From a virus, in the IMG/VR virus record IMGVR_UViG_3300030328_001506, positions 1-21,203 of that record: 21,203 bases of DNA; one strand, 5' to 3'. Under the pieces are notes generated by a model, which worked only from the letters and a program-made list of their open reading frames with translations, was not told where the DNA came from and ran no database searches. Position numbers and translations under genes: made by a program. Shown here piece after piece: positions 821 to 12,365 of the stretch (position 1 is its first letter; every line of letters begins with the position of its first letter).

Positions 821-824
821 GTGT

Positions 825-837
825 ATTTTAGTTAAGT
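825..837. promoter_or_regulatory. Operator-like motif, site A
   Basis: ATTTTAGTTAAGT matches the site at 9560-9572 in 12 of 13 positions. It overlaps the last codons and stop of the exonuclease gene and lies 4 bp upstream of the candidate lysis promoter -35. That position would suit an activator, but because it is partly coding its conservation could be coincidental. Confidence 0.35.
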
Positions 838-1737
838 ATCTACACCCATATAATGACTACAAAAGTGATTAACCTTGCAGTAATTTTTGCATCTAACATC
901 TTCTCCTGCTCTATGCACAATAGCACAACCTTTATTTTCTATCATATTTTTATCTTTTAAATATTGTAGTGCATCTTCTCTGGAAGGTAATAATCGTAAT
1001 GCAGTTTTTCTACCATCTTTAATAACTGCATATTGATCCTCTTTTCTCCAACGCTCTTCTGCGGTGCATAATGGGAGTTTATCTGCAGTTTCAGAATCTT
1101 GATGTAATTTAATTCGTTCTCTAATAAAATCTTCTTGTTCTTGATCTGTCCATTTTCTAATGGGAATAGTCATAGCTTGTTTTTTTGGGTATCTATCATC
1201 TTTTTCTACTCTGTTAATAGACCAATCTCTTAAAACTGCAACAATAGACAAATCTTTTACTTGTATGTTTTTACTACCAACAGTTAATTCATTTTGGTTT
1301 TTTCTACATAAAAAATCTAATACATTTAATTGTTGTTCCCATTCTGGTTTACCATTTTCTGACGAACTAATAGCAGAATAAGCGGAGGTAGTTTTAAAAT
1401 CAATAAGATTACCTTCGCCTGTTAATAAATCAAATGTACCAGAAATTTTCCACCCATTTGTAATATCATCATCTTGATAGAACAAAGTTTTTTCCGCTAT
1501 ATCTGTTCTTCGTGCAGATCGTTCAATAATATGATGTACTGATTGCCCAAGTAATGACCATATTCTATCTGATACATCTTCTTCTAATAAATCCCAATTC
1601 CGTTTTTCCAAGATTCTTATTCTAGGTGGTGCAATTATTCGTGTAGCAGATATATCTGATTTTGAGGAATCATAAGGATCGTTTTCTACTGCTCTTACTA
1701 AACAGGCAGGTAAGTTTGAATGATTAGTTATTTTCAC
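832..1737 (-). CDS. PD-(D/E)XK exonuclease with Fe-S cluster (Cas4/RecB-like)
   Basis: A 301-aa DNA exonuclease for recombination or replication. The nuclease motifs are in order: His68/His69 with Glu72 (HHIIE), Asp103 in GTFD, Asp113-x-Lys115 in LIDFKTTS, and a Gln motif at 135-136 (WEQQLNVLDFL). Four cysteines, C224 then C283-x3-C287-x5-C293, have the spacing of the Fe-S cluster that staples Cas4/AddB-type nucleases: one upstream and three near the C-terminus. The start is GTG with GGAG upstream and overlaps the previous gene by 14 nt. Next to the ssDNA-binding candidate, it probably provides 5'-end resection for phage recombination. Confidence 0.85.
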   Translation of the reverse strand: MKITNHSNLPACLVRAVENDPYDSSKSDISATRIIAPPRIRILEKRNWDLLEEDVSDRIWSLLGQSVHHIIERSARRTDIAEKTLFYQDDDITNGWKISGTFDLLTGEGNLIDFKTTSAYSAISSSENGKPEWEQQLNVLDFLCRKNQNELTVGSKNIQVKDLSIVAVLRDWSINRVEKDDRYPKKQAMTIPIRKWTDQEQEDFIRERIKLHQDSETADKLPLCTAEERWRKEDQYAVIKDGRKTALRLLPSREDALQYLKDKNMIENKGCAIVHRAGEDVRCKNYCKVNHFCSHYMGVDT

Positions 1738-1939
1738 GATACAACTCCATTAGTGGTTTATTTACTTCAAAAGTTTTATAACTTTCACATTTAACTGCAA
1801 TAAGTTTTTTTGACTTATCTTTATATTCTTCGTATAACTTTTCTACTGAAAACTCGCAAGAGTGGGGGGTAAGTTTATAATGTTCGTGCAATTTATCATT
1901 ATACTCTACCCATATTGTCAATACTAAATATTCTAACAT
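1724..1939 (-). CDS. Hypothetical protein, 71 aa
   Basis: No family recognised. The N-terminus is hydrophobic (MLEYLVLTIWVEY) and the rest is charged (YEEYKDKSKKLIAVKCESYKTF), with two cysteines. I place the start at the ATG at 1939, because it shares its A with the stop of the upstream ORF (TAATG); an in-frame ATG 12 nt further upstream lies inside that ORF. The 3' end overlaps the exonuclease start by 14 nt, so it belongs to the same leftward operon. Confidence 0.65.
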   Translation of the reverse strand: MLEYLVLTIWVEYNDKLHEHYKLTPHSCEFSVEKLYEEYKDKSKKLIAVKCESYKTFEVNKPLMELYRENN

Positions 1940-2088
1940 TACCCACCCCATACCTTATAATATTTTCTATAATCCTCTGGCACAAAAATATCTCTGCCGT
2001 GATGGTCTTTTACTATTGTGCCAAAATGATCTACAATGTATCCGTCTTTATTTATGTATTCAATCATTCCGTCTTTAAAATGGTACAT
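1939..2088 (-). CDS. Hypothetical protein, 49 aa
   Basis: A small ORF beginning MYHFKDGMIEYINKDGY and ending YRKYYKVWGG. It is rich in Asp, Lys, Tyr and His, with no membrane segment and no family I recognise. It overlaps the end of the upstream ssDNA-binding candidate by 14 nt and the start of the next gene by 1 nt (TAATG), filling the gap exactly. That packing is the main evidence that it is translated. Confidence 0.6.
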   Translation of the reverse strand: MYHFKDGMIEYINKDGYIVDHFGTIVKDHHGRDIFVPEDYRKYYKVWGG

Positions 2089-2638
2089 TACCACTATTAT
2101 CTTCTTCTTTAGTTAATTCACTTGAACTTAAAATAATATTTCTAATGCCCTCTTTAATTTGATTAAATACTTCCTTATTGCCTTTTTGATAATCTTCTAT
2201 ACTAAATAATTTAGACTTATGGTACTGTTGGTTTATGTCATCTTTAAGTGGCATAATGCTTACAATCTGTTGTTTGCCATTATCTTTTTCCATTATCTGT
2301 ATTTGACAAGTTTGACCTAACATATCACCCATATTAAATTGCTTTTTCTCTTGTGCGGTAAATGGTTTACCTCTCCACGAAGTTAAATCTTTTGATAGAT
2401 TTGATTTTTCATAAAATGATACATTATAAAATTTACCCGTTGTTAATGGTTCATTATTACTATCAGTATGTTCTGGAAATTCCCACTCAAACCATACTTG
2501 TCTTTTCCAAGATGTTTCTCCTTGCCAATTATTTTCTTGTGTACCTAAATCTATTACGCTAATACATCTAGCTTTTTGAACACCAAGTGGGATCGTTGGA
2601 TATTTTGGTTTACTATCTTCTGACATTACTAAACTCAT
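2075..2638 (-). CDS. Putative ssDNA-binding / recombination accessory protein
   Basis: A 187-aa protein and the first gene of the leftward unit that starts at the divergent promoter. The body looks like one beta-rich domain with conserved-looking aromatic positions (KARCISVIDLGTQ, RQVWFEWEFPE, KFYNVSFYEKS, CQIQIME). The C-terminus is acidic and ends in a hydrophobic NVPF, as SSB-type tails often do. Position beside an exonuclease also fits an ssDNA-binding or annealing partner; related phage proteins of this size are usually annotated this way. AAGGAG lies 7 nt before the ATG, a strong ribosome site. The function is inference; no sequence motif alone proves it. Confidence 0.5.
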   Translation of the reverse strand: MSLVMSEDSKPKYPTIPLGVQKARCISVIDLGTQENNWQGETSWKRQVWFEWEFPEHTDSNNEPLTTGKFYNVSFYEKSNLSKDLTSWRGKPFTAQEKKQFNMGDMLGQTCQIQIMEKDNGKQQIVSIMPLKDDINQQYHKSKLFSIEDYQKGNKEVFNQIKEGIRNIILSSSELTKEEDNSGNVPF

Positions 2639-2663
2639 AATTTTCTCCTTATAATTAAGTTTT

Positions 2664-2676
2664 ACTTTGGTTAAGT
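2664..2676. promoter_or_regulatory. Operator-like motif, site B
   Basis: ACTTTGGTTAAGT is an imperfect palindrome (ACTT and AAGT arms around 5 bp) that matches the site at 9560-9572 in 12 of 13 positions. It overlaps the -10 box (2674-2679) of the leftward promoter, a position expected to repress it. It lies between the divergently read Cro-like gene and the ssDNA-binding candidate. Confidence 0.5.
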
Positions 2677-2701
2677 ATAACTTTATTAATTATATAGTCA
2701 A
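2674..2701 (-). promoter_or_regulatory. Leftward promoter for the recombination genes
   Basis: Read leftward: TTGACT (2696-2701), 16 bp, TATACT (2674-2679), each 5 of 6 to the sigma70 consensus. It sits 35 bp before the ATG at 2638, which has a strong Shine-Dalgarno. Its -35 lies 7 bp from the -35 of the opposite promoter. Confidence 0.6.
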
Positions 2702-2708
2702 CTAAATA

Positions 2709-2737
2709 TTGACATATGTTAATTTTTTTTATAGATT
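2709..2737 (+). promoter_or_regulatory. Rightward promoter of the Cro-like gene
   Basis: TTGACA (2709-2714), 17 bp, TAGATT (2732-2737). Only six bases separate the -10 from the ATG at 2744, so transcription should start at the A of the start codon. No Shine-Dalgarno is present. Leaderless translation, as for lambda cI from PRM, is the simplest reading. Confidence 0.6.
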
Positions 2738-2743
2738 TACAAT

Positions 2744-2944
2744 ATGAGTAATAAATACGATTTAGCAATACAACGAAAAAAAGAAATTGTAGCCAAGTAT
2801 GGTGGTAAAAACTTATCTGAAAAGTTAAATATATCTCACCCTGCAGTTTCTAAATGGGAAGTCATACCACAATTAAGGGCATACCAGATTGCAAATTTTG
2901 GTGATTATAAATTAGAATATATTAGACCAGATTTAAGTTTTTAA
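2744..2944 (+). CDS. Cro-like helix-turn-helix transcription regulator
   Basis: A 66-aa DNA-binding protein. The helix-turn-helix covers about residues 22-41 (NLSEKLNISHPAVSKWEVIP); AVSKWE is the recognition-helix pattern of small Cro/YdaS-type repressors, and the C-terminal LEYIRPDL is also typical of that group. It is read rightward, against the surrounding leftward genes, from a promoter back-to-back with the leftward one. This is the arrangement of a phage switch. There is no Shine-Dalgarno and the -10 lies 6 nt upstream, so the mRNA is probably leaderless. The palindromic sites at 2664, 9560 and 10257 are candidate operators. No integrase or CI-type partner is seen, so it may control an early/late switch rather than lysogeny. 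Confidence 0.85.
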   Translation: MSNKYDLAIQRKKEIVAKYGGKNLSEKLNISHPAVSKWEVIPQLRAYQIANFGDYKLEYIRPDLSF

Positions 2945-2945
2945 A

Positions 2946-3158
2946 ATGAAAACTTTATTTGTTGTTGTTGCCTTGTTAACTTATCCAAAAGAACAGGCGG
3001 TGGTTTTTCGCAATTTATATGATGATTGTAAAACAGCAATACACGAATTAAAACAAAAATATGAATTTGAATGGCATATATGTATAACTGAACCGCATTG
3101 GAGAAAATGGCATAAGGATAAGACCGCAGGAGAGTGGTTGAAGTGGTTTAAGGATTGA
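2946..3158 (+). CDS. Hypothetical protein downstream of the Cro-like gene, 70 aa
   Basis: No family recognised. The N-terminus is a short hydrophobic run after one Lys (MKTLFVVVALLTYP), which could be a weak signal or anchor but is short. The remainder is rich in Trp, His and Lys (FEWHICITEPHWRKWHKDK and GEWLKWFKD). It starts one base after the stop of the regulator gene, so the two form a bicistronic rightward unit. The 3' end overlaps the end of the oppositely read HNH gene by 11 nt. The co-transcription hints at a role in the same regulatory decision, but nothing in the sequence shows which. Confidence 0.6.
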   Translation: MKTLFVVVALLTYPKEQAVVFRNLYDDCKTAIHELKQKYEFEWHICITEPHWRKWHKDKTAGEWLKWFKD

Positions 3159-3465
3159 TACTACCCAAAAGATTTAAAACCTCCTCTAGGAGCTTTATTT
3201 GGCTACCAAAACGATTTTCAAATTTTTTAGGAGAATAATGATAACTTTCGTTAGAATTTCTGTGATGATTAGGGCATAAAGGTAAAACTAGCATATGGCT
3301 AGACCTTTTTCCCATACCTGTTTTATTTCTTATGTGATGAATTTCTGCAGGTGAATCATAAATTCCTAATTTACGACAAGCGATACAACCTAGACTAACA
3401 ACTTTATCCATATGTCGTTGTTCTTTTAGTGTTGGTTTTTTACGCCCCATACTTTTTTCGTTCAC
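3148..3465 (-). CDS. Ref-like HNH nuclease (RecA-dependent nuclease family)
   Basis: A 105-aa HNH/beta-beta-alpha metal nuclease resembling phage P1 Ref. Zinc ligand pair C27-x2-C30 (GCIACRKLGI), then the catalytic-type EIHHIRNKTGMGKRSSHM (His43, His44, His57), then LPLCPNHHR (C64, H67, H68). The order CIAC...IHHI...H.LVLPLC..HHR is the Ref signature; P1 Ref cuts DNA at RecA-bound displacement loops. The first ATG overlaps the upstream gene by 26 nt; an in-frame ATG at 3450 (MGRKKPT) is an alternative start. It converges with the 70-aa rightward ORF. A role in recombination with the neighbouring exonuclease is inferred. Confidence 0.8.
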   Translation of the reverse strand: MNEKSMGRKKPTLKEQRHMDKVVSLGCIACRKLGIYDSPAEIHHIRNKTGMGKRSSHMLVLPLCPNHHRNSNESYHYSPKKFENRFGSQIKLLEEVLNLLGSINP

Positions 3466-3784
3466 TCATTACTGCAAATTGATTTACTTTCCAATAGTCA
3501 AACTTCATCTCAATAATTTTTCGCTCCCACCAGAGTCTTGATTCTTCTTCTACCGCTTGAGATAATTCTTTACACAATTTTTGATATTCTTCTGTTGCTC
3601 GTGATTCAAGATCCGCTTTTGCAACACTCATTTTTTCATTGCCAGACATTTTTAATTTCATCATTTTGGCTAATTCTATTTTTCTATTGTTTTCGTGAAA
3701 ATTTAAAGTTGCTTTAGCTTTTGCATAAGACTCTCCAATTTTTCTTATTTCTTCCATTCGTTTTTCTAATTCTTGTTCACTCAT
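3440..3784 (-). CDS. Hypothetical coiled-coil protein, 114 aa
   Basis: No family recognised. The sequence is charged and rich in Glu, Lys and Met, with long stretches suited to helix or coiled coil (about residues 1-90: ELEKRMEEIRKIGESYAKAK and YQKLCKELSQAVEEESRLWW). No membrane segment. It lies between the 95-aa gene (gap 4 nt) and the Ref-like nuclease (overlap 26 nt). Coiled coils of this size in replication operons may be structural accessories, but no role can be assigned. Confidence 0.65.
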   Translation of the reverse strand: MSEQELEKRMEEIRKIGESYAKAKATLNFHENNRKIELAKMMKLKMSGNEKMSVAKADLESRATEEYQKLCKELSQAVEEESRLWWERKIIEMKFDYWKVNQFAVMSERKKYGA

Positions 3785-3788
3785 AATC

Positions 3789-4076
3789 TTACTCCTTATA
3801 TTTAATCAATCCATCATCATCACACATATCAGCAATATCTGATGGACATTTAAAATTATGTTTGGCTAAAAGTTTTGCATCTTCTAATACATCTTTTCGT
3901 TTTTGTACCTGTAAATAGTATGGTAACTCTCCATCTTCTGATAAATTTTCTGGAGCAAGACCACAAGATATGCTCTCCCAACAATCTCTTGCTTGTTCTT
4001 TAGTGGTGGGAAATGCACCTCTTACATATTCCCATCTAGGATCGTCATTTGGAAATATTATTTTAATTTTATTCAT
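3789..4076 (-). CDS. Hypothetical protein, 95 aa
   Basis: No family recognised. The protein starts MNKIKIIFPNDDPRWEYVR and ends CDDDGLIKYKE; it is acidic and has four cysteines (CWESISCG, FKCPSDIADMCDDD) whose spacing is not a standard zinc finger. Its ATG overlaps the helicase stop by 4 nt (ATGA), so it is translationally coupled to the helicase. Confidence 0.65.
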   Translation of the reverse strand: MNKIKIIFPNDDPRWEYVRGAFPTTKEQARDCWESISCGLAPENLSEDGELPYYLQVQKRKDVLEDAKLLAKHNFKCPSDIADMCDDDGLIKYKE

Positions 4077-5557
4077 AATCTTATTCCTTTTGATTTAGCT
4101 TTTTTAATTTGTAAATGCTTAATAAAATTATGCACTTCGTTAGTAGGTGGTATGGGCAAGACCATTTTAGAATGGGGAAAGTGATGGAATTTTTCTCTAA
4201 AAGTATGACTTGCCCACCCCTCTTTATACCCTTTTTGTTTTGCAATAAACAATAGTTGGGCATAAAATCTTTTCTTATCTTCTGTTTTTGTTTCTTTCAT
4301 TTTTGGTAATTCTATTAATCTACCCTGCTTAATTAACATAATCTGTTCTTTTTTAGTTGGTATGTGAGAACAGTTTGGACATTCTGGTTCTTCTTTTGTA
4401 GGTTTATAAACAAAATCACATTTAACACAAGTGTATGGTTGTTTTTCAATGGGTACAGGGTCTTTCTTTTTTCTTTCTTTTTCTTCTCTACGCTTTAATT
4501 CCCATTTAGGTACATCTTCTGGAAATCCGTGTTCATATATACAACCACTATGATCTATTATTAATGTGTCGTTTTTATCTGGGTGTGGTCTTAATGATCT
4601 ACCTACCATTTGCAAATACATTCCATAAGATTTTGTAGGGCGACAAATCACTACACAAGAAACTTTTGGACAATCCCACCCCTCCGTTAGTATCATACAA
4701 TTTGATAACACTTTAATTTTATCTTCCTGTAAATCTTTTAACACTTGTTCTCTATCTTCATCATTCATTTCACTATCAATATGTCCTGCGGGTACACCAT
4801 TTTGATTAAATATGTTGGCTATGTATTTACTATGGGCAATACTACTAGCAAAAACAACTGTTGGTCTATTCTCTGCAAATTTAATCCAATGACTTACAGT
4901 ATCACCAACTAATTTTGTTTTATTCATTCTCTTATCTAATTCTCTTTTATCATAATCACCCATAGAAATTTTTAATCCCTGTAAATCTGGAATACTAGGT
5001 GCAAAAACTCTGTTCTTAACAAGATACCCTTGTGCAGTTAAATCTCTTATATTACTACTTTCTACTAATTCATCATAAATATTGCCTAACGCTTTTCCGT
5101 CATTTCTAATTGGTGTTGCAGTTAATCCCACAACATAGGCATCTGGATATTCTTCTAATAATTTTTTAAATGTATCACTCGTTGATCTATGTGCTTCGTC
5201 TAAAATAATCAAATCTGCATCTGGTTTAATAAAATCGTCATTATCTTTTCTGGCATTATAAGTTTGTATACTTGCTACTTGTGTGTCGTGTAAATAACTT
5301 CCTGTAATACCTGCCATTATCACTCCTGCATCAATTCCAAATTGATGTAATTTATTAGAACATTGCATTACTAACTCTCTGCGGTGAGCAACAAATAAAC
5401 AGCACTTATTTTTCTCTCTTGCTTTTTCAATCATTCTACTAGCAATAACAGTTTTGCCGCTCCCTGTTGGTGCGACTAATAAAACTTTTTTATTTCCTTG
5501 TTGAAATTTTTGTTTTATTTGTTCTATAGCAAACTCTTGATATTCACGAAGTTGCAT
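4073..5557 (-). CDS. DEAH-box superfamily 2 DNA helicase (ResIII-like) with C-terminal zinc finger
   Basis: A 494-aa ATP-driven helicase for phage replication or recombination. Walker A is PTGSGKT (residues 30-36), motif Ia FVAHRRELV (55-63), DEAH at 120-123, motif III LTATP (145-149), and motif VI QMVGRSLRPHPD (316-327) with arginine fingers. Linker and charged segments (355-370) lead to a four-cysteine zinc finger: C377-x2-C380 and C393-x2-C396. The rest is basic. GGAGAAG precedes the ATG, which overlaps the primase gene by 14 nt. The primase-helicase neighbour pair fits an SF2 replicative or origin-remodelling helicase of the kind found in small phages without a DnaB homologue; whether it is the main fork helicase is inference. 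Confidence 0.9.
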   Translation of the reverse strand: MQLREYQEFAIEQIKQKFQQGNKKVLLVAPTGSGKTVIASRMIEKAREKNKCCLFVAHRRELVMQCSNKLHQFGIDAGVIMAGITGSYLHDTQVASIQTYNARKDNDDFIKPDADLIILDEAHRSTSDTFKKLLEEYPDAYVVGLTATPIRNDGKALGNIYDELVESSNIRDLTAQGYLVKNRVFAPSIPDLQGLKISMGDYDKRELDKRMNKTKLVGDTVSHWIKFAENRPTVVFASSIAHSKYIANIFNQNGVPAGHIDSEMNDEDREQVLKDLQEDKIKVLSNCMILTEGWDCPKVSCVVICRPTKSYGMYLQMVGRSLRPHPDKNDTLIIDHSGCIYEHGFPEDVPKWELKRREEKERKKKDPVPIEKQPYTCVKCDFVYKPTKEEPECPNCSHIPTKKEQIMLIKQGRLIELPKMKETKTEDKKRFYAQLLFIAKQKGYKEGWASHTFREKFHHFPHSKMVLPIPPTNEVHNFIKHLQIKKAKSKGIRL

Positions 5558-6338
5558 ATCTTCTCCACATATCGTCTAATTGCCATAATATTTCCTGCTC
5601 TGTATCTGGCGGATTACACATACTATTAAACTTTAATACTTCAGCTTTTGCATACTGATATTCCTCGCCACGCTTAATTATTGAAATTACCATTTTTACC
5701 AATCTAGCGTGTCTATCGCCTTGTGTTGCACCTGTCATACCACCTGTATATTTATGTGTATAATTTGGATTGTGTGCAAACACTCTTTTTTTTGGTCTTT
5801 CTAAACCAAAACCATCTCTAATTTCTTCTTTTGTATATTCTGACATTATGTTTTGTTGAATAACTTTTACAGGATATGGCTCTTTTTTATTGTGCCAGAA
5901 CCCTGCACATCTCATTATTCTAGGTAAATCTTTTACAACAGGATCACTTCCAAACTTACTTGCTAATGCCTGTTGGTAAAGAGTAAAACTTTCTAATGGC
6001 ATATCTTTTACTAGCCAATAAGTATGATATTTATTAGGACTTGTATTTATTATAAAATGTGGTAATACATCAAACTTCTCTGGCATTGGTGTTCCGTCAA
6101 AATCACAAAATACTGCTCTTATCTTTTTAATGTTTTTAGTTGTTCTGCCACATAAATCAGTTTCATTGACAGTAAAATAAACACCTGCACCCTTTTGATT
6201 TAATTCTGATAATTCGTCAATATACTCATCAATATGTCCGTGAAATTGTTTAATTAATCTTTTATTCTTACCCTTATCACAAAAACATTGAAAACTATTT
6301 GTTAAACCAAATGGATATAAAAAATCGTAATACATCAT
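5544..6338 (-). CDS. RepB-like (archaeo-eukaryotic type) DNA primase
   Basis: A 264-aa protein matching the RepB primase family of phages and plasmids. Visible motifs: GVYFTVNET (52-60), the metal-binding Asp79-x-Asp81 in VFCDFDGTP, the TSPNKYHTYW segment with His105 (99-108), and the family motif DLPRIMRCAGFWHNKK with a conserved Arg. About 70 C-terminal residues form a helical region (GDRHARLVKMVISI...ILWQLDDMW) like the PriCT domain that follows such primases. It should synthesise primers for phage replication. It overlaps the helicase by 14 nt and the 21-aa ORF upstream by 4 nt. Two ATGs in a row open the frame; I keep the first. Confidence 0.85.
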   Translation of the reverse strand: MMYYDFLYPFGLTNSFQCFCDKGKNKRLIKQFHGHIDEYIDELSELNQKGAGVYFTVNETDLCGRTTKNIKKIRAVFCDFDGTPMPEKFDVLPHFIINTSPNKYHTYWLVKDMPLESFTLYQQALASKFGSDPVVKDLPRIMRCAGFWHNKKEPYPVKVIQQNIMSEYTKEEIRDGFGLERPKKRVFAHNPNYTHKYTGGMTGATQGDRHARLVKMVISIIKRGEEYQYAKAEVLKFNSMCNPPDTEQEILWQLDDMWRRYATS

Positions 6339-6400
6339 CTATAATGCTCCCACCAATACACAAACAAACCTAAAATCATATAAACTAAAACTATTTCCAT
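6335..6400 (-). CDS. 21-aa hydrophobic mini-ORF
   Basis: Starts MEIVLVYMILGL and ends VYWWEHYR: one possible membrane helix with a basic C-terminus. It fills the 65-nt gap between the DUF1376 gene and the primase; its stop overlaps the primase start by 4 nt (ATGATG context). No clear Shine-Dalgarno. It may be translated, or may only couple ribosomes to the primase start. Confidence 0.35.
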   Translation of the reverse strand: MEIVLVYMILGLFVYWWEHYR

Positions 6401-6403
6401 TAT

Positions 6404-6778
6404 TTACCCCCACCTAATTTTAGCACCAAGTTTCCCTGCTTTTTGTTTTTTAACTCTGTTTATAGCTTGTTCTTTTCTTTCCTGTTCTGCTTGAACACAT
6501 ATAAAATAAGTTTTTCCGTTTCGCTCTTTCTTGACTAAAAATTCTTTTTCTACTAACTTTGCAAATATTCTGCGAATTTTATCAATAGTACAATTACACA
6601 TTCTACTTAATACTTCTTCGTCATACTCTATTTCAAAACTCACCCAACAACGACAATATAACAAGATATATGCACCCTGTTCTTCTAAACTTAATTTCAC
6701 TCTGTCATTACTCGCTAACCAATCGTTAGCATAAAACCTAAAAATAGGTGATTGTTCTTCCCTAGTTGTTCTTCTCAT
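6404..6778 (-). CDS. DUF1376 / YdaU-like replication protein
   Basis: A 124-aa protein with the DUF1376 signature: FRFYANDWLASNDRVKLSLE (residues 13-32), then EEQGAYILLYCRCW and LSRMCNCTIDKIRRIFAKLV, a winged-helix layout. The C-terminus is basic (NRVKKQKAGKLGAKIRWG). The family occurs in phage replication modules and is thought to act in origin recognition or helicase loading. AAGG lies 9 nt before the ATG. It sits immediately downstream of the hexamer repeats and hairpins at 6810-6900 and upstream of the primase, which suits an origin-binding protein. It is short; longer relatives carry extra C-terminal sequence. Confidence 0.8.
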   Translation of the reverse strand: MRRTTREEQSPIFRFYANDWLASNDRVKLSLEEQGAYILLYCRCWVSFEIEYDEEVLSRMCNCTIDKIRRIFAKLVEKEFLVKKERNGKTYFICVQAEQERKEQAINRVKKQKAGKLGAKIRWG

Positions 6779-6809
6779 TTACATTATCCTTGTTGTTCTA
6801 TCTTGGTAG

Positions 6810-6900
6810 TATAGGTGTAAGTATAGGTATTGGTATTGGTATAGGTATAGGCATTGTTTTGCCATTAGCAAAACGATAGCACAACTATGGCATTGCCATA
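6810..6900. repeat. Candidate replication origin: tandem hexamers plus two hairpins
   Basis: From 6810 to 6851 there are seven consecutive hexamers: TATAGG, TGTAAG, TATAGG, TATTGG, TATTGG, TATAGG, TATAGG. They are followed by a 7-bp stem GTTTTGC/GCAAAAC with loop CATTA (6856-6874) and by TATGGC-ATT-GCCATA (6886-6900). The whole lies in the 139-bp gap upstream of the DUF1376 replication gene. Short iterons beside the gene for their initiator are the usual phage origin design. A Pro-Ile repeat ORF (6798-6854, leftward) results from the hexamers and I do not regard it as a gene. Confidence 0.45.
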
Positions 6901-6917
6901 ACATATTTTTACACCAT

Positions 6918-7064
6918 TTAATCATCTTTTGGCTCTGTATCACAAGGTAAAGCGTCTATGTGTTCATCTGTTTTTACTTTATCTAACCAGATAGTGCGAT
7001 CATATCCGCCATAATTAAAATTTCTTTTTAACTTAATAACTTTAGATTTTTTTTGGTTGCTCAT
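6918..7064 (-). CDS. Hypothetical protein, 48 aa
   Basis: A small ORF that starts MSNQKKSKVIKLKRNF and ends with an acidic tail (LPCDTEPKDD). Basic N-terminus, no membrane segment, no family recognised. It overlaps the zinc-ribbon gene by 23 nt and is the last gene before the candidate origin. The only support is its position in a fully packed operon. Confidence 0.5.
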   Translation of the reverse strand: MSNQKKSKVIKLKRNFNYGGYDRTIWLDKVKTDEHIDALPCDTEPKDD

Positions 7065-7209
7065 TTATTATTTCTCCCATTACTATTTCCCAACATTCTC
7101 CACAAACTTGATTATGACGAAAACCTATTGCATACATATTTTTATAATTAAAAATCCCGCCACAATGATCGCATTTTAAACTTGCTTTTTTATTGGTTAT
7201 TTTATTCAT
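7042..7209 (-). CDS. Small zinc-ribbon protein, 55 aa
   Basis: The protein has two CxxC pairs, C13-x2-C16 (KCDHCGG) and C36-x2-C39 (VCGECWE), about 20 residues apart: a four-cysteine zinc ribbon or knuckle. Between them lies an aromatic stretch (IFNYKNMYAIGFRHNQ). The C-terminus is NEQPKKI. GAAG lies upstream of the ATG. Phages use such small zinc proteins for host takeover or nucleic acid contact; the target here is unknown. Confidence 0.65.
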   Translation of the reverse strand: MNKITNKKASLKCDHCGGIFNYKNMYAIGFRHNQVCGECWEIVMGEIINEQPKKI

Positions 7210-7214
7210 AATCT

Positions 7215-7466
7215 TCACATTTTCTCACAAATTGTTTTCTGCATTTCGTATTCTTTTTGAAATTCGTTTCTACTGTTTCCTAAATCTAATTGTATTAATG
7301 CCAGATTGTGTAAATTATCTTCGTTTTCTTCTATTCCTAATTCTTCTAACTGCTTAATAAGTTTTTCTAAATTTTTTAATACATCAAGATAACGAATTGC
7401 CACCAATTCCATTTTTAATCTTCGCATATTTGCTAAATGAATATTTACATCTTCTTTACTCATCAT
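7215..7466 (-). CDS. Hypothetical helical protein, 83 aa
   Basis: No family recognised. The sequence looks almost fully helical with heptad-like Leu/Ile spacing (MRRLKMELVAIRYLDVLKNL and LEKLIKQLEELGIEE), so a coiled coil is likely. It begins with two ATGs; the upstream ORF's TGA stop overlaps them (ATGATGA context), so it is coupled to the 50-aa gene. It ends 5 nt before the zinc-ribbon gene. Confidence 0.6.
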   Translation of the reverse strand: MMSKEDVNIHLANMRRLKMELVAIRYLDVLKNLEKLIKQLEELGIEENEDNLHNLALIQLDLGNSRNEFQKEYEMQKTICEKM

Positions 7467-7615
7467 AAATCAACCTTATTTAATCTCTCATCTACCTCTA
7501 TTCTAGTTTCTTCTGGCAAATCCTCAAAATAATCCATAAGAATATTATACGCTTTTTTATATCGCCTATTCTCGTTTTCAAGTTGTTTAATTCTTAATTT
7601 ATCATCTATTATCAT
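7463..7615 (-). CDS. Hypothetical protein, 50 aa, first gene of its operon
   Basis: A small charged helical ORF starting MIIDDKLRIKQLENENRRYK and ending RLNKVDL. It overlaps the next gene by 4 nt. A consensus promoter -10 box ends 8 nt before its ATG and no Shine-Dalgarno is present, which makes it a candidate leaderless gene. Function unknown. Confidence 0.6.
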   Translation of the reverse strand: MIIDDKLRIKQLENENRRYKKAYNILMDYFEDLPEETRIEVDERLNKVDL

Positions 7616-7623
7616 ATTTACCA

Positions 7624-7652
7624 ATGTTAAGTATTTAAAAATGTATTGTCAA
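7624..7652 (-). promoter_or_regulatory. Leftward sigma70-type promoter for the replication operon
   Basis: Read leftward: perfect TTGACA (7647-7652), 17 bp, TAACAT (7624-7629). A half-site GTTAAGT (7626-7632) of the operator-like motif overlaps the -10. It follows directly after the terminator at 7671-7709, so it should start the unit 7615 to about 3148. Confidence 0.6.
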
Positions 7653-7670
7653 ACTTTTTTTTATTTTGTC

Positions 7671-7709
7671 AAAAAAAAATCCCCTAAAGTCGCTAAACAA
7701 TAGGGGATT
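7671..7709 (-). terminator. Rho-independent terminator, leftward
   Basis: A perfect 9-bp stem, AATCCCCTA (7678-7686) with TAGGGGATT (7701-7709), has a 14-nt loop. Read leftward it runs into a U-tract (the A run at 7671-7679). It ends the 8428-7742 gene group and separates it from the replication operon. Confidence 0.8.
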
Positions 7710-7741
7710 CACTAGGAAAGAAATAATAATTAAAATTATCA

Positions 7742-7981
7742 TTATTCAGTTAGTTTTGCAAGGTTTATAACTTTTTTTTCATTTTCTTCTACATCAATAA
7801 TGTCATAAGAAAAATCTGGTTGAACATCAAAAATATATTGTTTTTTATGTCTGAAAATTTTAATAGGTTTTCTTACTTCTTTTTCAATATCATCAATAAT
7901 TTCAAATATAATGTCATCACCAGAATAATCCCACGCTAATCTATCCCTTAATTGGTCAATTAATTTTATTATTTTAATCAT
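7742..7981 (-). CDS. Hypothetical protein, 79 aa
   Basis: No family recognised. Starts MIKIIKLIDQLRDRLAWDYS, with an acidic middle (DDIIFEIIDDIEKEV) and a probable beta-rich C-terminal part (KQYIFDVQPDFSYDIIDVEE). I choose the ATG at 7981 because AAGGA lies 10 nt upstream and the overlap with the previous gene is then only 8 nt; an ATG at 8011 is also in frame. The terminator lies 32 nt after its stop. Confidence 0.6.
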   Translation of the reverse strand: MIKIIKLIDQLRDRLAWDYSGDDIIFEIIDDIEKEVRKPIKIFRHKKQYIFDVQPDFSYDIIDVEENEKKVINLAKLTE

Positions 7982-8210
7982 TTGACTTGTCCTTGTTTTG
8001 TTGAAATTCAAATTTATGATATAACTTCCAAAAAATTTCAGTTAATTTGTGCATATCAGATAATCTTAAATCTTGACTTTCTACTATTTCACAATTTATG
8101 TCATTTATAACATTAACCGCCTTTTCAATCGTTTCAATTTGTTCTGGCGTTAATTCTTTAGGCAATTTCTTTTTATTTATTTTATGTGTTCTGTAAAACA
8201 TTTCATACAT
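7974..8210 (-). CDS. Hypothetical protein, 78 aa
   Basis: No family recognised. The N-terminus is basic (MYEMFYRTHKINKKKLPKEL), then a helical region (TPEQIETIEKAVNVINDINC) and a Phe/Lys-rich end. It starts on the stop of the upstream gene (TAATG) and is therefore coupled to it. Confidence 0.55.
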   Translation of the reverse strand: MYEMFYRTHKINKKKLPKELTPEQIETIEKAVNVINDINCEIVESQDLRLSDMHKLTEIFWKLYHKFEFQQNKDKSND

Positions 8211-8428
8211 TATTTCTCCAATCTTTCATTAATAATATGATTTAAATCATCTCTTAGATCAATTAATTGTCCTAAACTCCAAATATCTCTAATTAAATAT
8301 TTGGTTCGCATTGTATTTTTTTCATATGGCTTAACTTCCACCAATGAATTATAATTAAATTGTTTGTGTTGTTTTTCGTTATGTTGAAAACCACTCCCAA
8401 TTTCTTCTTTAGTTTTATAATGTTTCAT
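8210..8428 (-). CDS. Hypothetical protein, 72 aa
   Basis: No family recognised. It is basic in the first half (MKHYKTKEEIGSGFQHNEKQ) and helical at the end (LGQLIDLRDDLNHIINERLE). A weak GAGAAA precedes the ATG. It heads a three-gene leftward group that ends at the terminator near 7671. Confidence 0.55.
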   Translation of the reverse strand: MKHYKTKEEIGSGFQHNEKQHKQFNYNSLVEVKPYEKNTMRTKYLIRDIWSLGQLIDLRDDLNHIINERLEK

Positions 8429-8472
8429 TATTTCTCTGTTTTTAGTTAGGGTTAATATTCATTAAACTATTT

Positions 8473-8502
8473 AAATCGCTCTGTATGGCTCTTAAAATCG
8501 CT
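8473..8502. repeat. Two AAATCGCT repeats upstream of the 72-aa gene
   Basis: AAATCGCT occurs at 8473-8480 and 8495-8502, 22 bp apart (about two helical turns), in the 116-bp gap between 8428 and 8545. The gap should hold the promoter of the 8428-7742 group, but I see no convincing -35/-10 pair. The repeats may bind a regulator. Confidence 0.25.
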
Positions 8503-8515
8503 TAATTATCACTAG

Positions 8516-8537
8516 ACAAGGCGAAATCACGCCTTGT
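8516..8537 (-). other. Conserved RNA hairpin after the 140-aa gene
   Basis: An 8-bp perfect stem, ACAAGGCG with CGCCTTGT, has a 6-nt loop and sits exactly 7 nt after the stop codon at 8545. It resembles the hairpin at 9192-9213, with two compensatory base-pair changes. No U-tract follows when read leftward, so it is more likely an mRNA stabiliser or processing site than a terminator. Confidence 0.55.
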
Positions 8538-8544
8538 TTCTGGT

Positions 8545-8967
8545 TTAACCTTCATCAATAGTGATATATTGAGCATTGTTTCGCTCAATTTCTTCTTCTT
8601 CTTGTTTTAATATATCTTTCTCTATTTCTATTATTATATTAGCCATAAAATCCCAATAACCTTGTTCAACTTTAGTTCTTAAACTTTCGCTAGGGTTAGG
8701 ATTTATTGAACCCATTTTTATTGCTAGATTTACAATATCATCATAATAATATGGTAAATCTAAAGCCAAACCACTTAACCATTCTGATATAGCTTTTTGT
8801 TTTCCAACTTTAGGAATCAAAAAACCATATTCAGAGTAAAACCTTTTAAAAAGATAGTCCACCTTATCAAAATATTTAGCTATTGGTTCGCCATTTATAT
8901 CAGTTTCAATAGTTGATAATATAAACCTTTTATAATTGTCTTTATATTTTTCAGTTGATAATTTCAT
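8545..8967 (-). CDS. Hypothetical phage protein, 140 aa
   Basis: No family recognised by name. The core AISEWLSGLALDLPYYYDDI followed by NLAIKMGSINPNPSESLRTK looks like a compact helical domain. The C-terminus has a Glu run (KQEEEEIERNN) and ends YITIDEG. I choose the ATG at 8967: it overlaps the upstream stop as ATGA and has GGAGA 8 nt before it; an ATG at 8982 also exists. A conserved hairpin follows 7 nt after the stop. Confidence 0.6.
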   Translation of the reverse strand: MKLSTEKYKDNYKRFILSTIETDINGEPIAKYFDKVDYLFKRFYSEYGFLIPKVGKQKAISEWLSGLALDLPYYYDDIVNLAIKMGSINPNPSESLRTKVEQGYWDFMANIIIEIEKDILKQEEEEIERNNAQYITIDEG

Positions 8968-9158
8968 TTCCAAATTCTCCATATTGTTGATATTGTTTTA
9001 TATAAAAAAGTAGTACAAGCGATTAAATAGATTATGAATGTTAATACTAGTGCTCTATCAGATAGATAATGGCTAAAATATTCCATTAAAAAAAATAGAC
9101 CAAAAGAGATCACTCCGCTTGATCCTATTATTATAGAGTTGTTAAAAAGTTTTTGCAT
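8964..9158 (-). CDS. Small two-TM membrane protein, 64 aa
   Basis: Two hydrophobic segments, about residues 7-25 (NSIIIGSSGVISFGLFFLM) and 35-55 (RALVLTFIIYLIACTTFLYK), are separated by a short loop, with a basic tail (IWRIWK). No family recognised. Its leader, TAACTAGGAGA then AATATGCAAAAA, is almost identical to that of the 96-aa gene upstream. It may be an early membrane modifier such as a superinfection-exclusion peptide, but this is only a guess from topology and position. Confidence 0.6.
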   Translation of the reverse strand: MQKLFNNSIIIGSSGVISFGLFFLMEYFSHYLSDRALVLTFIIYLIACTTFLYKTISTIWRIWK

Positions 9159-9191
9159 ATTTTCTCCTAGTTAAAATTTATATTGCAAATG

Positions 9192-9213
9192 ACAAGGGAA
9201 ATTAATCCCTTGT
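9192..9213 (-). other. Conserved RNA hairpin after the 96-aa gene
   Basis: An 8-bp perfect stem, ACAAGGGA with TCCCTTGT, has loop AATTAA and sits exactly 7 nt after the stop codon at 9221. It is the partner of the hairpin at 8516-8537; both are preceded by CAGAA when read leftward. No U-tract follows. Confidence 0.55.
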
Positions 9214-9220
9214 TTCTGTA

Positions 9221-9511
9221 TTAAACTTCTTCGGATTTGCTTTTTAATCTAATAAATTCTGGTTTATCAAAATAAGTATGTTCAACAAATTCATCATTAA
9301 AACTTACTTCATAACCTTTATTTTTTAATAGGTTTAATAATTTTGTTGCATCACAATCTTCTTCCAAATAAAGACAAGCATTTTCATTGTTATAATATGA
9401 AAAATTAGAAAATTGATTTTCATCTATTTCTAAACCTTTTAAATCATATTTGGAAATTTTTATATATCCGTGAGATTCATTGTCAAAATGTGTTAACAAT
9501 ATTTTTTGCAT
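9221..9511 (-). CDS. Hypothetical protein, 96 aa, first leftward early gene
   Basis: No family recognised. Mixed alpha/beta look: MQKILLTHFDNESHGYIKIS, then an aromatic-rich middle (NFSYYNNENACLYLEED), a helix (ATKLLNLLKNKGYEV) and an acidic end. It starts with a strong TAGGAGA ribosome site. It is the first leftward gene of the window's central divergent region, so it is probably expressed early and strongly. Confidence 0.6.
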   Translation of the reverse strand: MQKILLTHFDNESHGYIKISKYDLKGLEIDENQFSNFSYYNNENACLYLEEDCDATKLLNLLKNKGYEVSFNDEFVEHTYFDKPEFIRLKSKSEEV

Positions 9512-9547
9512 ATTCTCTCCTAGTTAAATTAATATTATGCTAATAAC

Positions 9548-9575
9548 ATATTATAGTTTACTTTAGTTAAGTCAA
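9548..9575 (-). promoter_or_regulatory. Candidate leftward early promoter
   Basis: Read leftward: TTGACT (9570-9575), the same -35 as at 2696, then TAATAT (9548-9553) after 16 bp or TATAAT (9550-9555) after 14 bp. The operator-like motif at 9560-9572 covers the spacer and part of the -35. Confidence 0.45.
9560..9572. promoter_or_regulatory. Operator-like motif, site D
   Basis: ACTTTAGTTAAGT, an imperfect palindrome in the 98-bp divergent gap between leftward early genes and the small terminase. Together with flanking TTT it shares 15 of 16 bases with site B (2661-2676). It overlaps the leftward promoter and lies 37 bp upstream of the terminase ATG. Confidence 0.5.
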
Positions 9576-9609
9576 TATCTTTTTTATTATTAAGGTGTTA
9601 ATATAAGAA

Positions 9610-10023
9610 ATGGCTAATAAAACTCAAGAAAAGCAACGACCTTGCAAAGATGCGTTTATTAAGTTTTTTTCAGAATCTGGGAACGCAAAAACCAGCGCAA
9701 TAAGAAGTGGTTATTCAGAAAAGACTGCGGAACAACAAGGTGCGTATTTGAAGAAAAGATATGCAGGAGAAATATTTGAGAAACAGCAATCAATGTTGAG
9801 TAGTCTAACTCCAAAAGCGATACAAGTGCTTTCAGAGGTTTTGTCTGATCCAAAATGTAATGCGTCAACAAAAATCAATGCGGTGAATAGTCTTCTTGAT
9901 AGAACAGGTCATCAAACTGTCCAATTACACAAAGATGTAACTAATGAGAAGTCAACAGAGGAACTACAAGTAGAACTGCAACACCTACTAGGATTAATAC
10001 AAGAACCAGACAAACTAAACTAA
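9610..10023 (+). CDS. terS: Terminase small subunit
   Basis: A 137-aa DNA-recognition subunit of the packaging motor. The N-terminal helix-turn-helix-like region includes FFSESGNAKTSAIRSGYSEK and TAEQQGAYLKKRY, the typical terminase small-subunit pattern (N-x-x-x-A-x-x-x-G-Y-S). The central and C-terminal helices (SSLTPKAIQVLSEVLSDPKC, TKINAVNSLLDRTGHQ) should oligomerise and contact the large subunit. The ribosome site is weak: AAGG lies 14 nt upstream of the ATG. TAATAT 5 nt before the ATG could be a -10 of a very short-leader mRNA, but its -35 is poor. It opens the rightward late block; the GC-rich segment that follows is a candidate DNA target. Confidence 0.82.
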   Translation: MANKTQEKQRPCKDAFIKFFSESGNAKTSAIRSGYSEKTAEQQGAYLKKRYAGEIFEKQQSMLSSLTPKAIQVLSEVLSDPKCNASTKINAVNSLLDRTGHQTVQLHKDVTNEKSTEELQVELQHLLGLIQEPDKLN

Positions 10024-10134
10024 TATGATTACCTATATAATAGTATCAATAGCATTACACATTATCTTTTAATCTTGCCATTGGTGATGCTTTCACGCAC
10101 ACACACCCACGCATAAATTAAAAATGGTTCACGG

Positions 10135-10244
10135 ATCGCCATTAGATCGCCTGAAAGCCACGCAAATCGCCCATTTCAGAGGAGCCGACCCCCCAAACGC
10201 AACTCCGTTGCCTAGTAAGATGGATTCCATCCCACAGCGGTGGG
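10135..10244. other. GC-rich segment with repeats and hairpins, candidate packaging site
   Basis: 62 of these 110 bases are G or C, against a clearly AT-rich surround. It holds three ATCGCC repeats (10135, 10146, 10166) and three close hairpins: GCAAC-TCC-GTTGC (10199-10211), GATGG-ATT-CCATC (10219-10231) and CCCAC-AGCG-GTGGG (10231-10244). It follows the small terminase gene, where cos or pac sites often lie. The 100 bases before it (10024-10123) hold no feature I can support. Confidence 0.4.
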
Positions 10245-10251
10245 TATTTTT
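10231..10251 (+). terminator. Rho-independent terminator after the small terminase
   Basis: Stem CCCAC/GTGGG (5 bp, GC-rich) with loop AGCG, followed by TATTTTT. It lies about 210 bp after the small terminase gene and directly before a new operator and promoter, so it would insulate the late operon. Confidence 0.6.
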
Positions 10252-10254
10252 AGG

Positions 10255-10270
10255 TATTAACTAAAGTTAA
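10255..10270. promoter_or_regulatory. Operator-like motif, site E
   Basis: TTAACT-AA-AGTTAA (10257-10270) is a perfect 6+2+6 inverted repeat. On the minus strand, positions 10267-10255 read ACTTTAGTTAATA, which matches site D in 11 of 13 positions. It lies just upstream of the candidate -35 at 10275. Confidence 0.45.
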
Positions 10271-10274
10271 TGGG

Positions 10275-10303
10275 TTGTACATAGGTTAAGGTTGTGGTAT
10301 ATA
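10275..10303 (+). promoter_or_regulatory. Candidate promoter of the resolvase-terminase-head operon
   Basis: Weak -35 TTGTAC (10275-10280), 17 bp, -10 TATATA (10298-10303). Only GGGGT separates the -10 from the ATG at 10309, so the transcript may be leaderless. The weak -35 with a palindrome upstream suggests activation. Confidence 0.45.
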
Positions 10304-10308
10304 GGGGT

Positions 10309-10644
10309 ATGAGTGATAAAGCGTGGAAACAAAGGGAAAGACAGGTTGCAGAATTTTTTGGGGGAAAAAGAACACCTTTGAGTGGTGGAAATAGTGGTAT
10401 TACAAGAGCGGATGTGATACACGACAAATTATTTATAGAATGTAAGTTACGCAAAAAACACACGGCAATTACCCTTTGGGATGACACAAATGAAATGGCA
10501 AAGAAGGAGGGTAAGACTCCTGTCATTGCATTATGTGAAAAGGGCAGGGCAGGGTTTTGGGTAATGGTGCATAGTGATGATCTTGATAAAGTGCAAGAAA
10601 AGAAAACAGATTACTACTGGCAATTAACGCCAACTTGGAAATGA
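10309..10644 (+). CDS. Hjc-like PD-(D/E)XK nuclease (putative Holliday junction resolvase)
   Basis: A 111-aa endonuclease. Motifs: Glu10 in KQRERQVAEFFGGKR, SGGNSG (25-30), Asp35 in TRADVI, Glu44-x-Lys46 in LFIECKLRKK, and a helix with DTNEMAKKEGKTPVIALCEK. This order (E, SG, D, ExK) is that of Hjc-type resolvases and related phage nucleases. It may resolve branched DNA before packaging, which fits its place just before the large terminase. The ATG at 10309 follows TATATA by 5 nt; GTG at 10294 in the same frame has AGG 8 nt upstream and would add five residues. The stop overlaps the next gene as ATGA. Confidence 0.75.
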   Translation: MSDKAWKQRERQVAEFFGGKRTPLSGGNSGITRADVIHDKLFIECKLRKKHTAITLWDDTNEMAKKEGKTPVIALCEKGRAGFWVMVHSDDLDKVQEKKTDYYWQLTPTWK

Positions 10645-10853: not shown

Positions 10854-10953
10854 ATGGATAATTGGATTAATAACAATAGAAATAATTTTACATTTATGTG
10901 AAATAGCTTTTGATGTAATGCAACATATGCATTTTTATGGTCTTAATTTTTAA
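10840..10953 (+). CDS. 37-aa single-TM peptide before the large terminase
   Basis: Starts MQINKWIIGLITIEIILHLC and ends MHFYGLNF: one probable membrane helix followed by a Met/His-rich end. It overlaps the upstream gene by 14 nt and starts the terminase by TAATG (1-nt overlap), filling the gap exactly. AGG lies 8-10 nt upstream (ATGAGGATGAAAAATG). Function unknown. Confidence 0.5.
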   Translation: MQINKWIIGLITIEIILHLCEIAFDVMQHMHFYGLNF

Positions 10954-12365
10954 TGGATAATTTAGCCAGAGCGGTAAAAATTGCAAAAGAATTGCAATAT
11001 CGTCAAGAAACAAATCAGATGGAATTGTATAAACCATATGATTATCAAATAAAATTTCATAATAGTAATGCAACGCAACGATTGTTAATGGCAGGTAACA
11101 GAGTAGGTAAATCATTTTGTGGTGCTATGGAAATGGCATTTCATTGTACAGGATTATATCCAGAGTGGTGGACAGGTAGAAAATTTAATAGACCTGTAAG
11201 ATGTTGGGCAGGAGGAGTGTCTAATGAAACAACACGAGATGTATGTCAAAAAGAGTTAGTAGGACAACCAGATGATCCTAGTGCGAGAGGTAAAGGGAGT
11301 ATTCCGTTAAATTTAATAGGTGATACTGTAAGAAAAGCAGGTGTACCTAATGCATTAAACTCATTAGTAATAAAACATAAAACAGGAGGATATTCTCGTA
11401 TAGGTTTTAAAGCATATGAAATGGGTAAAGAAAAATGGATGGGTGAGTCATTAGATGTTATTTGGTTAGATGAAGAACCGCCACAAGCTATATACTCACA
11501 AGCATTAACTCGTACTGCGGATAAAGGAGGTATTGTGTATATGACATTTACGCCAGAGCAAGGTATGACAGAAACAGTTGCACAATTTGTAAATAATTTA
11601 AAAGATAGTCAAGATCTTATACAAGCAACTTGGGATGATGCACCGCATATGACAAAAAGTGTAAGAGATCAAATTTTACAGGCATTACCACCACACGAAA
11701 GAAAAATGAGAGAAAAAGGAATACCCCAGTTAGGATCTGGTTTAGTGTTTCCTGTAGCTGAAGAAGATATAGTTTGTGATCCTTTTGATATACCAGATTA
11801 TTATCCACGAATATGCGGAATAGATTTTGGTTGGGATCACCCAACAGCGTGTGCGTGGTTAGCGTGGGATAGAGATAGTGATATAGTATATGTGTATGAT
11901 AGTTATAGTATGCGACAAGAAACTGTACCTGTTCATGCATCAGCAATAAAATCAAGAAACAGATGGATTCCTGTTATATACCCTATGGATGGTAGACAGG
12001 CAGATAAAGGTAGTGGTAAAAGTTTAGCAATGCAATATAGAGAAGAAGGAGTTAATTTATTAAAAGAACATTTTACAAATCCACCGCAACAAGGAATGAA
12101 AGAAGGCACAGGTGGTATAAGTGTTGAAGCTGGAGTAATGGAAATGCTTACAAGATTTCAAACAAAAAGGTTGAAAATTTTTGCAAATCAGAATAAACTT
12201 ATGGAAGAAATTAGAATGTATCATAGAAAGGATGGTAAAATTATCCCTATGAATGATGATGTTATTTCAGCAATGCGATACGGAGTAATGTCATTACGAA
12301 AAGCTAGGGTTAAAAATACCGAACCGATCCAGATAGAATCTGATTCTGAATTTAATGTTTTTTAA
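10953..12365 (+). CDS. terL: Terminase large subunit
   Basis: A 470-aa packaging ATPase and nuclease. N-terminal ATPase: an adenine-binding-type YDYQIKFH (29-36), Walker A GNRVGKS (48-54), Walker B VIWLDEE (169-175, catalytic Glu), and the coupling motif YMTFTPE (196-202). C-terminal RNase H-like nuclease: Asp291 in GIDFGWDHP, Asp346 in YPMDGRQADK, and a late acidic NDDVISAMRYG. Length and order are normal for a phage terminase. The start shares one base with the 37-aa ORF stop. It moves DNA into the prohead with the small subunit at 9610, from which it is separated by a terminator and three small genes. Confidence 0.93.
   Translation: MDNLARAVKIAKELQYRQETNQMELYKPYDYQIKFHNSNATQRLLMAGNRVGKSFCGAMEMAFHCTGLYPEWWTGRKFNRPVRCWAGGVSNETTRDVCQKELVGQPDDPSARGKGSIPLNLIGDTVRKAGVPNALNSLVIKHKTGGYSRIGFKAYEMGKEKWMGESLDVIWLDEEPPQAIYSQALTRTADKGGIVYMTFTPEQGMTETVAQFVNNLKDSQDLIQATWDDAPHMTKSVRDQILQALPPHERKMREKGIPQLGSGLVFPVAEEDIVCDPFDIPDYYPRICGIDFGWDHPTACAWLAWDRDSDIVYVYDSYSMRQETVPVHASAIKSRNRWIPVIYPMDGRQADKGSGKSLAMQYREEGVNLLKEHFTNPPQQGMKEGTGGISVEAGVMEMLTRFQTKRLKIFANQNKLMEEIRMYHRKDGKIIPMNDDVISAMRYGVMSLRKARVKNTEPIQIESDSEFNVF

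Follow-up and report, generated by a model that had tools for sequence, protein, structure and literature searches.

A P22-type Cro protein is the probable ligand of a conserved promoter dyad, and possibly the early-to-late switch, in a lineage of SAR11 podophages

Positions 1–21,203 of the 36,213-bp phage record IMGVR_UViG_3300030328_001506 from IMG/VR (31.6% G+C; hereafter the window) carry a 14-bp dyad, TTAAC-N4-GTTAA, at several early promoters and just upstream of a weak late promoter, together with the gene for a 66-residue Cro-like protein of the P22_Cro family. On balance, we favor the reading that this dyad is the Cro operator, at which the protein would repress early genes and most likely activate late ones. 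SAR11 are the most abundant bacteria in the ocean, and their phages are among the most abundant marine viruses. How genes are timed in SAR11 phages without their own RNA polymerase has so far only been guessed at (PMC10504331). If our reading is true, one 66-residue protein turns early genes off and late genes on, and nature provides a case of a Cro that activates; the defined protein, operator, and fixed promoter geometry make up a testable system that includes the cultured phage Baldr.

The portal protein of the phage shares 75% identity with its counterpart in Pelagibacter phage Baldr EXVC032P and 41–44% with those of HTVC010P-type pelagiphages, which makes the phage a SAR11 podophage of the wider HTVC010P group. 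A search restricted to tyrosine integrases (PF00589), in which the control genomes matched, detected none in this phage, in four other Cro-bearing IMG/VR contigs, some of the contigs being fragments, or in Baldr. The T7-type RNA polymerase family PF00940 matched none of the searched records, although its control also matched nowhere, and HTVC010P-type phages are stated to depend on host RNA polymerase (PMC10504331).

As the first-pass annotation of the window had reported, a 13-mer, ACTTTAGTTAAGT, matches exactly at 9560–9572, with one mismatch at 2664–2676 and 825–837, and with two mismatches at 10255–10267 (minus strand) and 2106–2118. With at most one mismatch, three sites are present compared with 0.05 expected from dinucleotide shuffles (0 of 100 shuffles reach three), and with at most two, five are present compared with 2.07 (5 of 100 reach five), figures that are flattering because the seed was chosen from the window itself; with at most three mismatches, there is no enrichment (18 compared with 20.2 expected). 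The 13-mer is, moreover, the wrong frame for the basic unit: only 10 of its 13 letters are self-complementary, and alignment of relatives revealed the 14-bp dyad as the common unit, with one-letter departures such as TTTAC or TTGAC tolerated. This dyad begins 3 bp to the left of the 13-mer at 825, 2664, and 9560 (giving 822–835, 2661–2674, and 9557–9570) and is also found at 10257–10270. What had been described as a GTTAAGT half-site at 7626–7632 is actually one end of a full dyad at 7617–7630, and a strong site at 2709–2722, on the −35 element of the cro promoter, had been missed. The match at 2106–2118 was rejected as a site; it lies inside a coding region and ranks 61st (2103/2106) with the matrix described below. 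Plain genome-wide counts of dyads with at least 8 of 10 letters are likewise unenriched, and therefore the signal is carried by location and conservation. The cro gene and the operators are as follows.

2744–2944, plus strand: Cro-like protein of 66 residues, P22_Cro family by PF14549 profile match, the proposed binder.
2709–2722, plus strand: operator TTGACATATGTTAA containing the cro −35, putative autorepression site (−35 TTGACA 2709–2714, −10 TAGATT 2732–2737, ATG 2744).
2661–2674, plus strand: operator TTTACTTTGGTTAA next to the −10 of a leftward early promoter, whose start it covers (minus-strand −35 TTGACT 2701–2696, −10 TATACT 2679–2674).
7617–7630, minus strand: operator over the −10 of an early, leftward promoter (minus-strand TTGACA 7652–7647, TAACAT 7629–7624, ATG 7615).
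9557–9570, minus strand: operator within the spacer of an early promoter that runs leftward, divergently from terS (minus-strand TTGACT 9575–9570, TAATAT 9553–9548).
10257–10270, plus strand: perfect operator TTAACTAAAGTTAA in an activator-like position, with its end 4 bp before the late −35 (matrix rank 1; module in 15 dereplicated relatives).
822–835, minus strand: weak variant of the operator, TTAACTAAAATACA, ending 1 bp before the −35 of the lysis unit (minus-strand TTGATT 820–815, 16-bp spacer, TAACAT 798–793, ATG 785).

We ranked all 36,196 positions of the whole genome with an 18-bp matrix trained solely on dyads upstream of resolvase and terS homologues in other phages, which makes the ranking largely free of the bias of seed choice. 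The dyads at 10257 (20.8 bits), 9557 (15.8 bits), 2709 (14.9 bits), and 7617 (14.6 bits) occupy ranks one to four, followed by 2661 at rank 6 (6.6 bits) and 822 at rank 18 (2.2 bits). Intergenic matches of at least 11 bits number 3, 3, 4, 4, 4, and 7 in six Cro-bearing genomes, compared with 0.02–0.12 in shuffled intergenic sequence, and in each genome the observed count was reached by 0 of 200 shuffles. No such match was found in five complete Cro-less relatives (HTVC010P, HTVC028P, Greip, HTVC100P, and HTVC204P), where the Cro-less status of the last four is taken from a tblastn search of all phage records in which no HTVC010P-type phage matched. Thus, two checks that the first-pass annotation had proposed, a comparison of motif density between intergenic and shuffled sequence and a survey of the sites in relatives, both turned out in favor of the motif, with enrichment in six Cro-bearing genomes and dyads kept across the lineage, and we have hardly any doubt that the operator network is real.

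The 66-residue protein matches PF14549 (P22_Cro) with 45.6 bits (curated cut-off, 30.2), and a profile built from the Cros of relatives matches the solved structure of P22 Cro (1RZS) with an E value of 7e-6. Its AlphaFold model is all helical but poor (predicted local distance difference test score, pLDDT, of 56). The recognition-helix segment, ISHPAVSKW, is unchanged in relatives of 59–98% identity, bar one residue in one sequence. Cro is encoded in 6 of the 15 records searched (G001, G002, G007, G009, G011, and G012; 9.8–60.6 kb); the remaining, Cro-less records are fragments of 4.1–16.1 kb plus the complete HTVC010P, which is also devoid of intergenic operators. Among ten further early open reading frames scanned against Pfam, no other clear DNA-binding regulator was found.

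The annotated OR and OL of P22 contain TTAAG-N4-CTTAA, and dyads of the same 5-4-5 form precede cro in other phages with P22_Cro proteins; in AH02, no clear 5-4-5 dyad was found before cro. An innermost G (AAG-N4-CTT) accompanies four helix types that end in QW (P22 and near relatives, K242, FluPA14, and D14O), an innermost C (AAC-N4-GTT) four lineages whose helix ends in RW or KW (ST101, ZF40, ES15, and the pelagiphages), and GG the helices that end in GW (mEp390 and YeP1). Phage Cros with the helix HPAV-RW are accompanied by GTAAC-N4-GTTAC and the pelagiphage helix HPAVSKW by TTAAC-N4-GTTAA. Because HPAV-helix phage Cros go with TAAC-N4-GTTA, the same as in the pelagiphage dyad, Cro is very probably the binder. 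The earlier proposal of the Cro-like protein as the best candidate is, therefore, backed by its family, its co-occurrence with the sites, the operator on its own −35, and the correspondence between helix and operator, and we infer strongly that it is both the binder and a repressor. We also note that, over eight helix types, the residue preceding the helix Trp (Q versus R or K) follows the innermost operator base (G versus C), which may represent a recognition rule (L141–L154). A C-terminal motif, Y(I/L/M)RPD(L/I) (window 2918–2938), is present in all pelagiphage Cros and not in P22 Cro and is a possible dimer or polymerase contact.

The positions of the early operators are those of repressor sites. 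Consistent with the first-pass annotation, each of the dyads at 2661, 7617, and 9557 lies across core elements of a strong leftward promoter. Operator 2661 stands at the same position in four relatives (L003, L004, L006, and L008), 7617 is retained in five close relatives, and the counterpart of 9557 is a perfect or near-perfect dyad in ∼20 relatives and at position 38928 of Baldr. At the cro −35, TT(G/T)AC-N4-GTTAA or a close variant is found in most relatives; in Baldr (L028 31720–31778), three operators 23 and 22 bp apart precede the cro operon, reminiscent of OR1–OR3 of lambda. On a larger scale, strong sigma-70-like promoter calls near 124 dereplicated operators occur at a rate of 0.19 per strand versus 0.045 at control positions (∼fourfold), and in 31 of the 47, the operator centre falls within −30 to +11 relative to the start. 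Operators on core elements, thus, indicate repressor geometry, with the gene for Cro itself included; judged by this geometry, there is a good probability that Cro represses the early promoters, and autorepression of cro via 2709 is likely. At four operator-linked promoters, the −10 sits only 5–8 nucleotides before the ATG (2738–2744 for cro, 785–792 for lysis, 7615–7623 for the gene behind operator 7617, and 10304–10309 for the resolvase), so that leaderless mRNAs are implied.

The highest-ranking operator of the genome, 10257, precedes a late unit with the following elements.

10275–10308, plus strand: weak late promoter with leaderless geometry (−35 TTGTAC 10275–10280, 17-bp spacer, −10 TATATA 10298–10303, 5 nucleotides, ATG 10309).
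10309–10644, plus strand: Holliday-junction resolvase-like protein, encoded by the gene that opens the late unit, which leads to terL at 10953–12365 (phrog_2002, phrog_2).
10276–10289, plus strand: possible second half-operator TGTACATAGGTTAA over the late −35 and spacer (−0.3 bits, rank 38; in close relatives, lost in distant ones).

The dyad at 10257 is perfect in nearly all readable relatives, with a core that varies (TAAA, CTAA, TTAT, TTTT, TTGT, ATTT, and ACAA). In the 15 dereplicated relatives with the late module, the gap between operator and −35 is 4 bp in 12, 5 bp in two, and 3 bp in one; the ATG follows the −10 by 5–8 nucleotides, and the −35 is mostly non-consensus, reading TTGAAC, TTGAAT, or TTGTAC in 11. 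The spacer between −35 and −10 is 16–17 bp, and in most relatives the ATG comes 34 nucleotides after the −35, a spacing that is kept regardless of which gene stands behind the module, although this gene varies between sub-lineages. The placement of a dyad before a weak late promoter, as proposed for the window, is kept at fixed spacing through the whole lineage. The earlier claim that the 13-mers at 825 and 10255 lie 4 and 7 bp before weak −35 boxes is right about the upstream position and wrong about the placement, because the dyads end 1 and 4 bp before the −35. A blind IMG/VR scan with TTAAC-N4-GTTAA-N4-TTGAA found an ATG 32–38 nucleotides from the −35 in 13 of 15 loci of the lineage versus 3 of 65 others (two of these three are also relatives, by terS or resolvase); this unanchored scan returns mostly chance matches and is informative only after the lineage and ATG distance have been checked. 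The two late modules with a consensus TTGACA −35 have a 5-bp gap, as would be expected if these promoters depended less on help, although the two are closely related. Activated promoters usually show such an anatomy: a weak promoter with a strong operator at a fixed distance before it. For the late genes, this anatomy hints at activation by Cro, which we consider an even call and infer only weakly. Between terS and the resolvase gene, positions 10188–10256 form a conserved noncoding block (CCCCCCAAACGC...ATGGATTCC...CACAGCGGTGGGTATTTTTA), a candidate packaging site; a hairpin-like CCCACAGCGGTGGG with a T-run before 10257 is doubtful as a conserved terminator because its pairing is not retained in relatives.

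In the case of the lysis unit, only the TTAAC half of site 822 is good. Among the matrix matches in the 500 bp upstream of the g284 gene, it nevertheless scores highest in each of the eight distinct homologues with >80% identity, and three divergent lineages, including those of L008, where the site scores 9.1 bits, and L015, preserve the register between TTAAC and the −35. Site 822 is, thus, probably a weak operator, the sign of its effect being uncertain.

In the scheme that we favor, a dimer of the P22_Cro-family protein would bind the 14-bp dyad. Cro would be produced early from its own promoter, which it would then block at 2709, and would shut the strong leftward early promoters at 2661, 7617, and 9557 by covering the −35, spacer, −10, or start. 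At its best operator, 10257, just upstream of a weak −35, Cro would most likely help host RNA polymerase to start the resolvase-terminase unit, and the weaker copy at 822 may give the same help to the lysis unit. The sequence itself shows the sites with their positions and conservation, the intergenic enrichment, and the association of the sites with cro.

Several points weigh against this scheme. Cro proteins are normally pure repressors, and helix 2 of the pelagiphage Cro is without a conserved acidic patch of the kind that lambda CI carries. The distance from the end of the operator to the −35 is 4 bp at 10257 and 1 bp at 822, a 3-bp difference in register that makes a single sigma-contact mechanism for both sites unlikely, and 822 scores just 2.2 bits. 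The dyad at 10257 is embedded in a longer conserved noncoding block, possibly a packaging site. Although the late promoters have a median score of 4.2 bits versus 8.5–11.7 bits for the strong promoters called near operators, this contrast is partly built in because the strong set was picked by a cut-off of 8.5. The training set of the matrix holds some fairly close relatives (85–91% identity in adjoining genes), so that the sites of the window are somewhat favored in the ranking, the six-genome comparison being less affected, and the pattern linking helix and operator was spotted after the fact.

Pure repression is the alternative in which all sites, including 10257 and 822, damp promoters of the host polymerase, and the late unit is switched on otherwise (by replication-linked copy number or another phage factor), with Cro only tuning it. 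The P22 record itself says that Cro turns off early gene expression in lytic growth, and both the second weak half-operator overlapping the late −35 in close relatives and the differing register of the two late-type sites are consistent with pure repression. However, the strongest operator of the genome would then lie outside the core promoter, at a rigid spacing before a weak −35, whereas operators at strong promoters mostly cover the core, and an early repressor with its best site at a late promoter would keep late genes silent without any apparent means of relief. We consider this alternative unlikely, though by no means negligible. It is improbable that the dyad at 10257 belongs to a packaging (cos/pac) or replication site near the terminase genes rather than to a promoter: although it lies at a fixed distance from a conserved noncoding block (CCCCCCAAA...ATGGATT...AGCGGTGGG...TATTTTTA) between terS and terL, the Cro-less HTVC010P retains a similar GC-rich part (CCCCCCACAACGC...TATATATATACATGG) upstream of terL without the dyad, which is therefore separable from the block. 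Furthermore, the same dyad is also found at cro and the early promoters, and at 10257 it is followed at a rigid distance by a −35, a 16–17-bp spacer, a −10, and an ATG.

Another DNA-binding protein, of the host or an unrecognised one of the phage, might own the sites, with the cro gene as merely one target, and many of the phage genes are indeed without a family. The N4 spacing of the P22_Cro family and the correspondence of helix and half-site argue against this, as do the presence of Cro in the large operator-bearing contigs searched, its absence from HTVC010P, which has no intergenic operators, and the lack of a clear regulator among the ten early open reading frames scanned against Pfam; such a binder is very improbable. 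It is scarcely credible that an AT-rich genome produced these sites as chance AT-rich matches. The lack of enrichment of the 13-mer at up to three mismatches and of 8/10 dyads is what chance would give, but the intergenic enrichment in six genomes, the perfect dyad with a varying core across the lineage, and the absence of matches from Cro-less relatives are not, and chance is already refuted for 2709, 7617, 9557, and 10257, with 822 excepted.

The proposed Cro control has partial counterparts in known systems. P22 shares with the pelagiphage the protein family (PF14549), a two-fold operator with 5-bp half-sites 4 bp apart, and operators that lie between divergent promoters and cover the cro promoter. 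P22 differs in its half-site (TTAAG versus TTAAC in the pelagiphage) and in having OR and OL only, whereas the pelagiphage operators are spread over several early promoters and the late promoter; further, neither a CI/C2 partner adjoining cro nor a tyrosine integrase was found in the pelagiphage. A partner repressor divergent to cro, as in a Cro/CI switch, was not found, the gene at 2075–2638 matching only PHROGs of unknown function and no Pfam family. Because neither a partner repressor beside cro nor an integrase was found, the likeness is to a P22-type Cro as a protein and not to the Cro/CI switch as a circuit. At OR2/PRM of lambda, the CI operator lies just upstream of a weak −35, the transcript is leaderless, and the same protein represses other promoters. 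In the pelagiphage, by comparison, the putative binder is a Cro-only protein, without the conserved acidic patch in helix 2, and the operator is a few bp further upstream. Protein p4 of Bacillus phage phi29 is not known as a Cro-fold protein. As a single early regulator bound to an inverted repeat, it represses early promoters, and a late promoter of poor consensus requires it for transcription by host RNA polymerase (PMC3100819); these are the early and late roles proposed for the pelagiphage Cro, and the positions of its sites would fit them. At a single composite region, p4 acts jointly with the nucleoid-like protein p6 (PMC3100819), whereas the pelagiphage sites are separate single operators.

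Overall, the proposed circuit is a CI-less, integrase-less variant of Cro control with an outcome that would resemble the phi29 p4 switch. That a lone Cro, without CI, integrase, or phage RNA polymerase, serves as a dual repressor-activator that alone drives the early-to-late switch in a widespread SAR11 phage lineage, via a perfect operator 4 bp before a weak leaderless late promoter, is a tentative proposal whose chances we put slightly below even. Activation of late genes by a Cro is not reported in the literature searched, whose coverage does not extend to most subscription journals, and the pelagiphage papers searched for Cro do not mention it.

The cultured relative Baldr EXVC032P (OQ414636) has a Cro of 63% identity, the dyad at the terS-divergent promoter, and a late module at 233; it differs in that another small gene follows the late promoter and cro is second in its operon. 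An unannotated open reading frame of 70 residues, MARKFLQINKPKT..., lies straight behind the late-type operator-promoter module of Baldr (L028 ∼296–508). In the window, the first gene behind the lysis-side promoter is a small open reading frame, MWDNIKDKLEEIVSEW... (785 to ∼675, minus strand; ∼35 residues with a hydrophobic stretch), which is conserved in relatives and possibly encodes a small holin-like protein.

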